From an uncultured Dehalococcoidia bacterium (GTDB lineage Bacteria > Chloroflexota > Dehalococcoidia > Lucifugimonadales > GCA-2712585), in contig OX638324.1 in the NCBI GenBank assembly GCA_951812825.1, forward strand, positions 1,921,141-1,985,140: a stretch of DNA of 64,000 nucleotides. Reading direction: 5' to 3'. The position numbers and the translations under genes were made by a program. How positions within the stretch are numbered: the stretch's first letter is position 1; every line of letters starts with the position of its first letter. Under the pieces are notes generated by a model, which was not told the origin of the DNA, did no database searches, and saw only the letters and a program-made list of their open reading frames with translations. Shown here in pieces: positions 15,175 to 21,438 of the stretch.

Positions 15175-16062
15175 TCAGGAAGTAGCCGACAAGAGGTGGT
15201 CAATGGGCACGTCCAGGGCGATTGAGATTTTCAGGACTGCGCCGATGGTGAGGTTCTGACGCCCGTGTTCTATGGAGCTGATGTAGGTGCGGTCGAGGCC
15301 CGATAGGTCGCCCAATTCCTGCTGAGTAATCTTCTGGGACGTTCGGATGGCTTTGATGCGGCGGCCCAGGAAGTCCAGGTGTTGCTGGAGTGACAGCTTT
15401 CTGGCGGAGAGTCCGACCAGGCGGCGGGCGTGCTGAACGGCATTGAAGACGGAGATAGCGAGAGCATCACATCCGATGGAGTCAGCATTGGGCATTGCCA
15501 GGAGAAGGGACCTACCGCCGAGGATTATCTTTGGGCCAGGGGAGCCAAAGGCGCGGATGGATTCGACGGCGGCCTTGGCATTGGGGAGAAATTCGGGCAA
15601 GGTGGAGGAGAGGAGGACCACGTCCCCGCTGCGGAAGGCAACATATTCGCCGAGGTCCCTGGCCGGGGTGGCGTTCCCGAGGAAGTCGACATCCCAACCA
15701 TCCATAATGAGGAAATCGGCCACGAACCGGGCACCGATGGAGTGTTGATCGCCCTCGAGGGGAGTGACGATAGCCCGCAATCCCAGAGGTGCGGGGGGTT
15801 GGACCTTTTGTCGGAGCAGGGCCATGGCCTCCAGGGTGATGGAGGTTGCGACATGCTCCTGGGCGATGTTGATGACGCCATTCACCCATTGTTCGCCGAT
15901 GCGAATCTGGGAGGGCTGGAGAATGTTCAGGTAGATGTCCGACAGGCTTGCGCCGCGACTGAGGGCCTGGTCAATAATGGAGTGGGCCTGAGCGGATTGA
16001 CCAAAGACAGCGGCCTCGAAGAATTTCTTGCGGGCTTCAGACAGGCGGAAGCCGATATCCAT
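15175..16062 (-). CDS. CarH-like adenosylcobalamin-binding light sensor with a C-terminal XRE-type HTH
   Basis: The 295-residue protein joins three parts. Residues about 10-85 are the helical B12 cap domain with the CarH signature W-x9-EH exactly preserved (Trp59 to Glu69-His70). Residues about 95-215 are a B12-binding Rossmann domain with His107 in GDQHSIGARF at the place of the lower-axial histidine of CarH, plus FLGNATP and LLSSTLPE. Residues about 228-293 are an XRE/Cro helix-turn-helix (ITQQELGDLSGLDRTYISSIEHG). Known CarH/LitR proteins have an N-terminal MerR-type domain instead, so the DNA-binding part is of a different family and on the other end. A light- or cobalamin-responsive repressor is inferred. 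AAGGAGG precedes the ATG. It is divergent from the DUF378 gene. Confidence 0.88.
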   Translation of the reverse strand: MDIGFRLSEARKKFFEAAVFGQSAQAHSIIDQALSRGASLSDIYLNILQPSQIRIGEQWVNGVINIAQEHVATSITLEAMALLRQKVQPPAPLGLRAIVTPLEGDQHSIGARFVADFLIMDGWDVDFLGNATPARDLGEYVAFRSGDVVLLSSTLPEFLPNAKAAVESIRAFGSPGPKIILGGRSLLLAMPNADSIGCDALAISVFNAVQHARRLVGLSARKLSLQQHLDFLGRRIKAIRTSQKITQQELGDLSGLDRTYISSIEHGRQNLTIGAVLKISIALDVPIDHLLSATS

Positions 16063-16105
16063 GGGTGGGGACCTCCTTAACGTGGAGTGCAGATGTAGAT
16101 GATAT

Positions 16106-16118
16106 TAGACATATTCTA
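16106..16118. promoter_or_regulatory. Candidate operator 1 (TAGA-N5-TCTA)
   Basis: TAGACATATTCTA has four-base inverted arms around five bases. It lies in the 107-base divergent spacer between the cobalamin regulator and the DUF378 gene, 43 bases upstream of the regulator start. A second palindrome with the same spacing follows at 16138-16152. Confidence 0.45.
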
Positions 16119-16137
16119 TCAAGGATATTAAATTACG

Positions 16138-16152
16138 TCTATACCAAATAGA
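16138..16152. promoter_or_regulatory. Candidate operator 2 (TCTAT-N5-ATAGA)
   Basis: TCTAT and ATAGA are perfect five-base inverted arms around ACCAA. It ends just before the AAGGAGG ribosome site of the DUF378 gene. XRE-family repressors commonly bind such short dyads, so autoregulation and control of the neighbour are plausible. Confidence 0.5.
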
Positions 16153-16169: not shown

Positions 16170-16376
16170 GTGGAGATAATTCAGATTATAGCGATTGTTC
16201 TTGCGGCTGTGGGGGCGGTGAATTGGGGTCTGGCGGCCTTGTTCAAGCTAGACCTGGTGGCTTTGGTGTGCGGCGGGATGAAGTTTGGAGAGGTGAATGG
16301 GCTGTCTAGGATTGTGTACGTACTGGTGGCGGTAGCGGGAATAATTGCCCTGACGGCGATTGGAGAGATAGCCTAG
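16170..16376 (+). CDS. DUF378 small membrane protein
   Basis: This 68-residue protein has two predicted membrane helices (about 4-26 and 46-66) with the DUF378 hallmarks GAVNWGLAALFKLDLVALV and LSRIVYVLVAVAG. The family has no established function. It begins with GTG preceded by a strong AAGGAGG eight bases upstream, so the start is well supported. It is divergent from the cobalamin-sensing regulator and the spacer contains two dyads, which makes it the most likely regulated target of that protein. Confidence 0.88.
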   Translation: MEIIQIIAIVLAAVGAVNWGLAALFKLDLVALVCGGMKFGEVNGLSRIVYVLVAVAGIIALTAIGEIA

Positions 16377-17584: not shown

Positions 17585-17671
17585 TGGATGCGAATTTAGT
17601 GGGGGTGGTGGAGTTGTTGGTGGGGGTTGGAAAGGAGTGGCAATGAAGGTAAAAGTGACTATAATCATAAC

Positions 17672-18808
17672 ATGGTGAAGTTTCTGCATACGGCTGACTG
17701 GCAGCTTGGGATGACGCGGCATTTCCTGAAAGGGGAGGCGCAGGCGCGATTCAATGACGCCCGGTTGAATGCCATTGAGCAGATAGGGAGCATCGCGATT
17801 AACGAGGGGTGCCAGTTTGTGGTGGTGTGCGGGGACGTTTTCGAGTCGAACCAGGTGGAGCGGCAGGTATTGACGCGGGCTTTGGAGCGGATGGGGGCGG
17901 TTTCCGGAGTCACGTTTTACCTGCTGCCGGGCAATCATGACCCGCTTGATGCTGCGTCGATATATAGGTCTCCGACCTTTACCAAGCACCGACCTGACAA
18001 CGTGGTGGTGTTGGACGGGTCGGGGACGGTCCAGCCGGTTCCGGGGGTGGAGTTGATCGCGGCGCCGTGGCGGAACAAGCATCCGACTACGGACCTGGTG
18101 GCGGAGGCCTGCCGGGGGTTGGGGGCAACGCACGCTATCCGCATTGTAGTGGGACATGGGGTGGTGGACTCCATGTCTCCAAACCCGGATGATCCGAGGC
18201 TTATCAGTCTCGCAAGACTGGAGGAGAAGGTTGAAGCGGGCTTAATTCAGTTCGTGGCTCTTGGGGATCGGCACTCCAAGACCGACGTGGGTTCGACGGG
18301 GCGGGTGTGGTATGCAGGGGCGCCGGAGCCGACGGACTATGATGAGGTTGATCCGGGGCACGTGCTGGTGGCGGAGTTGGACGCCTACGGCGCCAACGTT
18401 GGTGCGCGACAGGTGGGGACTTGGCGGTTCGTCCGCCGCGAATGGCAGTTGAGCGAGGATGATGACTTGCACGCGCTGGAGGATTGGCTAAAGTCGCAGC
18501 CTAACAAAGAGCGATGCATCGTAAAGCTGGGGCTGGTGGGGACGGTATCGCTGGCGCAGAAGGCGCGGCTAGACGGGATTCTAGAGGATATGGCAGACCG
18601 ATTCGCGGCACTGGACGCGTGGGAAAGTCGCAGCGATCTGGCGGTCATGCCCAATAACGTGGATGTTGAGGAGATCGGGCTGTCGGGGTTTGCACGGGAG
18701 GCGCTGGAGGAACTTAGCGAGAAGGCTACCGCGGAGTCTGGGGAGGAATCGTTGGTGGCCCGGGACGCGTTGGCGCTGCTGTACCGGCTGGCGGGGGCGC
18801 GAGAATGA
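17672..18808 (+). CDS. SbcD/Mre11/YhaO-like DNA repair metallophosphoesterase
   Basis: This 378-residue calcineurin-type phosphoesterase is predicted to be the nuclease half of an SMC-like repair complex. Metal-binding motifs appear in family order: HTADWQLG (about 6), GDVFE (about 54), LPGNHDP (about 86), GHGVVDS and LGDRHSK (about 195). The C-terminal third is the capping/partner-binding part. I chose ATG 17672 (MVKFLHTADW) because the metal motif must lie at the very N-terminus. The stop overlaps the ATPase gene by four bases (ATGA), so the two subunits are coupled. Confidence 0.9.
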   Translation: MVKFLHTADWQLGMTRHFLKGEAQARFNDARLNAIEQIGSIAINEGCQFVVVCGDVFESNQVERQVLTRALERMGAVSGVTFYLLPGNHDPLDAASIYRSPTFTKHRPDNVVVLDGSGTVQPVPGVELIAAPWRNKHPTTDLVAEACRGLGATHAIRIVVGHGVVDSMSPNPDDPRLISLARLEEKVEAGLIQFVALGDRHSKTDVGSTGRVWYAGAPEPTDYDEVDPGHVLVAELDAYGANVGARQVGTWRFVRREWQLSEDDDLHALEDWLKSQPNKERCIVKLGLVGTVSLAQKARLDGILEDMADRFAALDAWESRSDLAVMPNNVDVEEIGLSGFAREALEELSEKATAESGEESLVARDALALLYRLAGARE

Positions 18809-21438
18809 AGTTGCATCGGATACGGCTGCGGAACTTCCGCGGGGTGCGGGACAGGGAGGTCGAGTTCGCCGAGAGCGGGGTGACGATTGTGGAGGGGCCG
18901 AACGAGGTGGGGAAGAGTTCCATAGCTGAGGCGCTGGAGCTGGCAATCGAATACCCGGATTCGTCCAGACACAGGAAGATCCAGAGCGCAAAGCCGGAAG
19001 ATCGGGACGAAGGGCCGGAAGTCGAGATCGAAATGTCGACGGGGCCTTACGTATTGACGTACCAGAAGCGGTGGATTCGCAGGCCGACCACGACTCTGAA
19101 TGTCACGGCGCCGCAGAGCGAAAATCACACGGGGCGGGCCGCGCACGACAGGCTTGAAGCGATACTGAGGGAAACGTTGGACGATGATTTGCGCCTCGCG
19201 CTTCAGATTGAGCAGGGAACGGAGTTGAAGCTGCCCAGCTTTTCTATTCCTTCAATGAGGAGGGCGTTGGAGAACGCAACGGACGGGGATGCATCCGATG
19301 CCGAAGATGAGGATCTGGTGGAGCGGATAGGGGTGGAATTCGAAAGGTACTGGACGGCGACGGGGAGGGTGACAGGGAAGCGCATTGCGGCTGCGAAAGA
19401 GGTGGAAGAGGCACGGGAGAGGGTCCAAGGCCTGAAGGAGCAGATGGACAAAATCGAGGGAGACGCGGCGGAGATGGTGCGGCTGGCGGAGGAAGCCAGA
19501 GGAATCGCCCAGACGCTCCAGGAGCTTGCGGAGAGTGAGCGTAAGCTGACCGAGGAATGGGCCGCCATCGACCGGCTGCAGACGGACCTGGAGCGGATAG
19601 ACGCTGTCCACGTGGCCGCTTCGTCGAAGCGTCAGCAGGCTTTGGGGGAGCATCAGCATCGGGAAGAGATGAAGGACGACCTGGAAGACGGTGCAAAGGC
19701 GCTGACCGACCTGGAGGCGGAGGCGGAACTGGCGGCCCCCGCCCTGTTTGCTGCCACAGGACAGAGCGAAGAGGCTGCGGTGAGCCTGAAGGCGGCCGCA
19801 GATGCGCTGCGCCGTGCCAGGGAGGGACAGGACAGGGCATTCGGGGACAGGAACTTTCTTCAGGACGAAATCGACGAAGAGCTAATCTCCGAGCGTTACG
19901 AACGTTACAAGGACGCAAGGCAGCTACTCAGGGATTCCGAGGAATTTTTGGAATCGGCCAAGGTGAACGAGGAAGTTCTGGCGGACATAGAACGCGCCTA
20001 CAACGAAGACATGAAGGCCCAGGCGGCGGTGGAGAGCGCCGCCGCGAAGGTGGAGGCCACGGCGCTTTCGGACATCGCACTCAGACTTGACGACGAAGAG
20101 TTTGAGCTGGAGACAGATGAGAGGCGTGAGATTCTCGTTGAAGATCGGGTGGAGTTGTCTGTGCCCGGCGTGGTCCGATTCAGGGTCAGCGCCGCGCCTG
20201 AGGCGCGGGTTCTGGCGCAGCAGCGTCGCGGTGTTCACGAAGAGTATCTGCGCCTATGCGCCAGGGTTGGAGTCTCCGACTTTGAGGATGCGAGGAGGGC
20301 GGAACAAGCGCGAAGGGACGCGATTCGAAACCGGGATGACGCACGGGCGGCAATGAGGCGCGAACTGAGGGACTGGACGGCGGAATTCATGGCAAGCAGG
20401 ATTGCGAGTCTCAAGGCAAACGTAGTCTCGTATCCGCAGCAGCGGGCTGAGGGCCCGCCTATGCCGGTGAACCTGGACGAAGCACTTCGAATTGCAAGGG
20501 AGTCGTCGGGGAAGGTGGAGGACTGCGAAAGGGAATTGCAGGTGCGGGAGACGGTGTGGAAGGAAAGGGAAGAGTATCTCAACAAGGTGAGGCTTCAACA
20601 AGCGGAGCTGGCGGCGAGGGTCGACGTGGCGCGGGGACGGCAGAAGGAAGCGTCGGAGCGATTGGCGGCGGCGAGAGAGAGTGTAAGCGACGAGGACATT
20701 TTGGTCGCCCTGAACATGGCGAAGCAGGTGTTTGAAGTCTCGATAAAGTCGTTGGAAGAGGCCAAGGGGAGGCTGAAGGCGGCAGACCCGGATTCCTTGA
20801 GGGCGAGGCTCGACAACGTGTCCGACGCGAAGGGCCGCCTCGAGACGCAGCTGCGGACAAATGAGGGCCGCCAACACGAGATTCGGGCCAGCCTGGAGTT
20901 GCGAGGAGAGATGGGCCTGCACGGCAGCTACGAAGGAGCCGTGAGTCGATTTGAGCAGGCACAGCGGGAGCATGAGGGAGAGGAGAGCCGGGCAAGGGCC
21001 GCGAAGCTGTTGAAGGAGACGTTTGACAAGCACCGCCGGCTGGCGAACCAGCGCAACATCAAACCGCTGAAGGAGCGGATTGACTGGCTGGGCGGCTTGG
21101 TGTTCGGGCCGACGTTTGAGGTGAAGCTGGACGATGAAGAGTTGCGGGTGGTGGGTCGGACGCTTGACGGGGTGACGTTGGAGGTGGACCAGTTGAGCAC
21201 GGGGGCGAGGGAGCAGCTGGGGGTGTTGAGCCGGTTGGCGTGCGCGGCCATTGTCAGCCCGGAGGACGGCGGGGCGCCGGTGATGATAGACGACGCCTTG
21301 GGGTGGAGCGACCCGCAGCGGCTGCAGAGCATGGGAGCGGCGATTGCCGTGGCGGGGAAGCAGTGTCAGATTGTGATTCTGACGTGTTTTCCGGGGAGGT
21401 ATGCCCACGTGGGGAACGCTGAGGTGGTGAGGTTGTAG
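18805..21438 (+). CDS. SbcC/Rad50/YhaN-like AAA ATPase, SMC-type
   Basis: The 877-residue protein is the ATPase partner of the preceding nuclease. Walker A is GPNEVGKSS at about 32-40. Long coiled-coil arms follow (about 190-790). The C-terminal half-site has LSTGAREQLGVLSRL (ABC signature) and PVMIDDALGWSDPQR (Walker B and D-loop). I found no CxxC zinc hook in the middle of the coiled coil, although Rad50 and SbcC normally have one. This points to the hookless YhaN-like branch. Homologues act in DNA double-strand-break or replication-fork processing; the exact role here is inferred. Confidence 0.9.
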   Translation: MKLHRIRLRNFRGVRDREVEFAESGVTIVEGPNEVGKSSIAEALELAIEYPDSSRHRKIQSAKPEDRDEGPEVEIEMSTGPYVLTYQKRWIRRPTTTLNVTAPQSENHTGRAAHDRLEAILRETLDDDLRLALQIEQGTELKLPSFSIPSMRRALENATDGDASDAEDEDLVERIGVEFERYWTATGRVTGKRIAAAKEVEEARERVQGLKEQMDKIEGDAAEMVRLAEEARGIAQTLQELAESERKLTEEWAAIDRLQTDLERIDAVHVAASSKRQQALGEHQHREEMKDDLEDGAKALTDLEAEAELAAPALFAATGQSEEAAVSLKAAADALRRAREGQDRAFGDRNFLQDEIDEELISERYERYKDARQLLRDSEEFLESAKVNEEVLADIERAYNEDMKAQAAVESAAAKVEATALSDIALRLDDEEFELETDERREILVEDRVELSVPGVVRFRVSAAPEARVLAQQRRGVHEEYLRLCARVGVSDFEDARRAEQARRDAIRNRDDARAAMRRELRDWTAEFMASRIASLKANVVSYPQQRAEGPPMPVNLDEALRIARESSGKVEDCERELQVRETVWKEREEYLNKVRLQQAELAARVDVARGRQKEASERLAAARESVSDEDILVALNMAKQVFEVSIKSLEEAKGRLKAADPDSLRARLDNVSDAKGRLETQLRTNEGRQHEIRASLELRGEMGLHGSYEGAVSRFEQAQREHEGEESRARAAKLLKETFDKHRRLANQRNIKPLKERIDWLGGLVFGPTFEVKLDDEELRVVGRTLDGVTLEVDQLSTGAREQLGVLSRLACAAIVSPEDGGAPVMIDDALGWSDPQRLQSMGAAIAVAGKQCQIVILTCFPGRYAHVGNAEVVRL

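Follow-up and report, generated by a model that had tools for sequence, protein, structure and literature searches.

A Predicted Cobalamin-Dependent, Probably Light-Responsive Repressor with a C-Terminal XRE Domain in an Uncultured Dehalococcoidia Bacterium

The 64-kb stretch of Dehalococcoidia DNA analyzed here (the window) encodes a protein in which a cobalamin-binding sensor resembling that of CarH is joined to a C-terminal XRE helix-turn-helix (Table 1). We consider it probable that this protein is a one-component repressor that depends on adenosylcobalamin (AdoCbl), most likely responds to light, and acts on its own gene and on the divergent gene for a DUF378 protein. A preliminary description of the locus had proposed a light- or B12-responsive repressor, and this is still the best-supported predicted function, given the light signature in the sensor, the linkage of relatives to photolyase and photo-oxidative genes, and a conserved operator-like motif at the promoters.

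Table 1. Positions in the window of the regulator, its parts, and its predicted target
Feature	Position	Strand	Basis or remark
Regulator CDS, 295 aa, ATG start	15175..16062	-	cobalamin-binding sensor + C-terminal XRE helix-turn-helix
Four-helix B12 cap, residues 12-83	15814..16029	-	Pfam B12-binding_2 and structure model
W59-x9-E69-H70 motif	15853..15888	-	sequence; W/E/H invariant in 25 homologues; Val60 replaces CarH His132
B12-binding Rossmann domain, residues 96-215	15418..15777	-	Pfam, model, and structural alignment
His107, predicted lower axial cobalt ligand in DxHxxG	15742..15744	-	aligned to axial His of CarH/CtMerR/photocobilins; invariant
C-terminal XRE helix-turn-helix, residues 225-291	15190..15390	-	HTH_3 E 2.4e-13; helices in model
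Predicted target, divergent gene for a 68-aa small membrane protein (DUF378)	16170..16376	+	Pfam DUF378 E 5.4e-16; near regulator in 12 loci
Predicted operator, palindrome TGTCTAATATCATCTACA (minus strand)	16094..16111	.	best site in 64-kb window; conserved in homologous loci
Promoter-like site for regulator gene	16113..16141	-	consensus match only
Promoter-like site for DUF378 gene, first hexamer overlaps operator	16106..16134	+	consensus match only

Pfam places B12-binding_2 at residues 12-83 of the window protein (E 1.3e-12), B12-binding at residues 96-198 (E 3e-11), and HTH_3 at residues 236-290 (E 2.4e-13, 50.3 bits against a cut-off of 23); all three matches exceed the curated cut-offs, in agreement with the cap, Rossmann, and helix-turn-helix assignments made earlier. 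Pfam finds no MerR domain in the protein, and the sole DNA-binding domain is of the XRE type and C-terminal, as had been proposed, whereas CarH and LitR carry MerR at the N terminus. The NCBIfam equivalog for CarH (NF052513) matches the sensor part only, with 55.7 bits, below its 400-bit cut-off. The closest solved structures to the helix-turn-helix (window 15190-15390) are those of the restriction-modification controller proteins C.BclI and C.AhdI, but these are small, stand-alone helix-turn-helix proteins without a sensor.

The sensor retains the residues characteristic of light-responsive cobalamin domains. The signature established for such domains with SignatureFinder, comprising GxxW, EH, GxxH, and GxxxP (PMC11796333), is complete in the window protein (G56xxW59, E69H70, G104xxH107, and G129xxxP133). 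CarH is defined by a W-x9-EH cap motif together with ExHx2G-x41-SxV/T-x22-27-GG (PMC8156234); the cap motif reported in the preliminary description is exact (W59-x9-E69-H70), and the B12 motif fits as DxH107xxG110-x41-S152xT-x27-G182G183, its first residue being D and not E (the family has D in 14 members and E in 11). The earlier choice of His107 as candidate axial ligand also holds, in that D105-Q-H107-S-I-G110 is exact and the histidine aligns with the axial His of CarH, of CtMerR from Chloracidobacterium, and of the photocobilins. W59, E69, H70, H107, G110, and P133 are invariant in all 25 aligned homologues, so that a chance match is excluded.

In sequence, the solved proteins that come closest are the photocobilins (8j2w, 8j2x, and 8j2y) and CtMerR (8jbs), which are experimentally light-responsive (PMC10979010, PMC11796333), followed by CarH of T. 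thermophilus, a further light-responsive relative of the sensor. The AlphaFold2 model, for which 25 family members were used (mean pLDDT 91.4, pTM 0.84), has four helices at residues 3-85, the Rossmann domain at 96-215, and the helix-turn-helix at 225-291, and so contains the expected four-helix cap and B12-binding domain. Aligned with VIA-align, the model matches SasPcob with a Z of 26.2 (2.0 A over 207 residues), CtMerR with 22.4, and TtCarH with 20.7 (over ~200 residues); corrinoid proteins and methionine synthase have the same fold, with Z up to 23, so that the fold alone is no proof of light sensing and the weight falls on the signature residues. The photocobilins SasPcob and AbDPcob are thus the closest solved relatives of the sensor by both sequence and fold, but photocobilins end in a globin-like bilin domain, to which AbDPcob adds a cyclase (PMC10979010), whereas residues 219-295 of the window protein are linker and helix-turn-helix in both Pfam and the model; membership in that group was rejected on this ground. 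CtMerR, although a close match in the sensor, has an N-terminal MerR DNA-binding domain.

The shared fold, with a weaker profile similarity to MtmC/MttC-type proteins, is also what would be seen if the window protein were an ordinary corrinoid methyl-transfer protein with an incidental helix-turn-helix. However, the signature W and EH, invariant in the XRE family, are unconserved in the aligned MttC-type protein, there is no methyltransferase partner gene next to the window regulator, and the conserved predicted operator and regulator-type gene linkage speak for a regulator. With the photoreceptor motifs present and the methyl-transfer context missing, we rejected this explanation as highly improbable.

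One residue sets the window member apart from CarH. The position after W59, which corresponds to CarH His132, is Val60 in the window protein, and 18 of 25 homologues have His there. In CarH the bis-His light state is formed through His132, and most tetramers of the H132A variant persist in light (PMC10442372), so the window member may have a different light-state chemistry. In our alignment CtMerR (Arg) and the photocobilins also have a residue other than His at this position, yet both respond to light, CtMerR by passing from tetramer to monomer (PMC11796333). Val60 could mean that the window member has kept the fold and lost the photo-switch, and is either a B12-independent repressor like CarA, which works without B12 (PMC8156234), or a light-insensitive one; a small apparent regulon and a genome without photolyase or fasciclin would suit such a protein. 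We find this improbable: CarA is without W-x9-EH (PMC8156234), whereas the window protein keeps every B12-contact signature residue, which suggests selection for AdoCbl binding. The genome to which the window belongs (G000) encodes the corrinoid adenosyltransferase CobO, CobT, and CobU and has one cobalamin riboswitch, so that AdoCbl is probably available, whether made or remodelled.

We identified ~25 full-length homologues in Chloroflexota; the 24 that were aligned with the window protein share 29-57% identity with it, and every one bears the C-terminal XRE domain. Of 60 relatives, 12 carry a full-length homologue; others lie on seven GTDB contigs and in further Chloroflexota families, and none was found in plasmid records; the contig scan of genomes covered close relatives. 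The distribution is patchy, both same-genus genomes (G001 and G002) being without the regulator gene. In a tree of sensor domains the XRE family lies on one side of a branch whose support is weak (53/50), so that a single origin of the family does not follow from it.

The upstream regions of most homologues have in common an 18-bp palindrome, TGT-N4-TATA-N4-ACA, which we predict to be the operator. Of 21 non-redundant loci, 16 have an exact TGT-N12-ACA no more than 130 bp upstream, against 0.9 in dinucleotide shuffles, and 10 have two copies spaced by 31-33 bp, against 0.025, a comparison that overstates significance because the motif was first spotted by eye. When the matrix was trained without the window site, the palindrome at 16094-16111, between the regulator and the divergent DUF378 gene, came first in the 64-kb window (18.9 versus 10.7 bits). 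This is the one good copy in the window, and many relatives have two, 31-32 bp apart. Since the site overlaps the first hexamer of the DUF378 promoter-like match and adjoins that of the regulator, a single bound protein could repress both promoters.

Five photolyase loci, kept out of motif training, served as a test set. At L077, on contig 44 of G020, whose regulator gene lies on contig 23, five sites precede a DICT-photolyase operon where 0.1 would be expected; the other four of these untrained loci, all in regulator-bearing genomes, had no convincing operator. Two strong sites belong to the fasciclin gene of L058, whose promoter is separate from the regulator's, and L063/L065 are without the motif. 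The DICT-domain protein and photolyase form a conserved pair (L077:795-3390, L058:9914-12519), with clustered operator-like palindromes ahead in both. Elsewhere, a single strong operator-like site (L074:6739-6756, in G033) lies just 3′ of a photolyase gene and ahead of a large membrane-protein-like ORF. A strict fixed-spacing paired-operator pattern, evidently too strict, gave zero matches in 17 genomes. A single-site pattern gave 8 matches in the window genome and 3 in the control, nearly all of the former inside ORFs, the exceptions being 16094-16111 and one before another gene; the G000 cob operon is without a strong operator. Since that genome has neither a photolyase nor a fasciclin gene, and nearly all the other strong matches are inside ORFs, no recognized photoprotection target is under the regulator's control there.

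DUF378 is the usual divergent neighbor in the window's own clade, and a further 11 loci have it close to the regulator. Among 400 Chloroflexota genomes sampled, it is present in 9 of 12 with a full-length regulator and in 16 of 388 without, although the genomes are related and these co-occurrences are not independent events. In eight of the nine, the two genes share a contig and are no more than about 2 kb apart; the ninth lies at a contig break that splits a fasciclin gene. G001 and G002 lack DUF378 as well as the regulator, and the two seem to be lost or gained as a pair even within the genus. A fasciclin-domain protein and DUF378 occur together near the regulator in L066, L067, L069, L070, L071, and L072, from two other Chloroflexota families. 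Elsewhere in the window, a metallophosphoesterase gene lies next to that of an AAA ATPase (17627-21438), resembling nuclease pairs of the SbcD/SbcC type, and Rfam finds no RNA families in the window.

The neighborhoods of several other homologues point toward light. L059/L060 have a divergent operon for SRPBCC-like, amine oxidase, DUF1365, SDR, SRPBCC, photolyase, and DUF2867 epimerase proteins; the L058 regulator is accompanied by DICT, photolyase, DUF2867, SDR, and fasciclin genes; and L063/L065 have CFA-synthase-like and amine-oxidase genes. Fasciclin genes lie by the regulator in two further Chloroflexota families, and in 7 of the 8 fasciclin-bearing genomes (22 genomes examined) the fasciclin gene is located at the regulator. 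These neighbors resemble two known regulons, that of class II LitR in Pseudomonas, with photolyase, SDR, FAD oxidoreductase, and UfaM (PMC9758184), and the one that RpoE governs in the singlet-oxygen response of R. sphaeroides, with photolyase, CfaS, a fasciclin protein, and an SDR (PMC7074977), a likeness that supports a role for the family in light stress. The case for light sensing is stronger in the family than in the window member, whose genome is without photolyase and fasciclin.

Other regulators in Dehalococcoidia have cob genes as neighbors, namely cobT, cobS, or cobU in L004, L006, and L005/L056. In L004 and L006, cobT is 3′ of the regulator and in the same direction, and a cobalamin riboswitch lies upstream of the L056 cob/regulator locus on the same strand. 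The adjacent genes span L004:5983-8277, L006:5983-9104, and L056:8310-12136. The main alternative to our reading, which we think unlikely, is that the protein senses the level of AdoCbl, repressing with it and releasing without it, so that any effect of light is incidental. The adjacency to cob genes, the missing photolyase of the window genome, and a light-state switch that Val60 may weaken are all compatible with such a sensor. Yet most of these genomes are already served by cobalamin riboswitches, no cob gene is adjacent to the window regulator, W-x9-EH is an element of the light signature absent from ordinary corrinoid proteins, and several relatives are tied to photolyase or photo-oxidative genes with operators.

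If the window protein is indeed a light-responsive repressor, we envisage that in the dark AdoCbl would lie between the four-helix cap (W59, E69, and H70) and the Rossmann domain, with H107 as lower ligand, and that the AdoCbl-bound protein would be held as a dimer or tetramer whose C-terminal XRE domains bind 18-bp TGT-N12-ACA palindromes. A protein bound at 16094-16111 would block two promoters, that of the regulator gene itself and that of the divergent DUF378 gene; light would break the Co-C bond and loosen the oligomer, and both genes would be derepressed. Palindromes 31-32 bp apart are separated by three helical turns and present one face of the DNA, an arrangement that would suit a dimer of dimers. 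It is about as likely as not that the Chloroflexota family consists of AdoCbl-dependent light repressors that bridge two palindromes three turns apart and control genes for photolyase, fatty-acid modification, fasciclin, and DUF378 proteins.

The family shares with CarH and LitR the four-helix cap with W-x9-EH, the B12 Rossmann domain with its axial His, and a predicted oligomer-based repression, and its DNA code would be different: the CarH operator consists of 11-bp direct repeats (PMC8156234) and that of class II LitR is TGTACA-N12-TGTACA (PMC9758184), in contrast to the predicted TGT-N12-ACA palindrome. The different output design claimed in the preliminary description stands as far as the C-terminal XRE fusion is concerned; its novelty is tempered, since light-responsive cobalamin domains with a helix-turn-helix attached at either end, the C terminus included, have been noted, with XRE unnamed and no target given (PMC11796333). 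None of the papers covered by our literature search describes an XRE-CarH fusion, its operator, or its regulon.

Should these predictions be correct, the B12 light sensor has been combined with another class of DNA-binding domain, unrelated to the first; its coupling to DNA would be unlike that of CarH, and its predicted operator is directly testable. DUF378 would become a possible light-stress protein, pointed to by its linkage to the regulator, and the natural XRE fusion might serve as a model for building a green-light switch that acts on a defined palindromic operator. Light kills cultured SAR202 strains, an effect as yet unexplained (PMC10444878). The XRE family is a candidate light regulator in Dehalococcoidia and, if the reading holds, would provide a light-response regulator in this class, SAR202-like lineages included.
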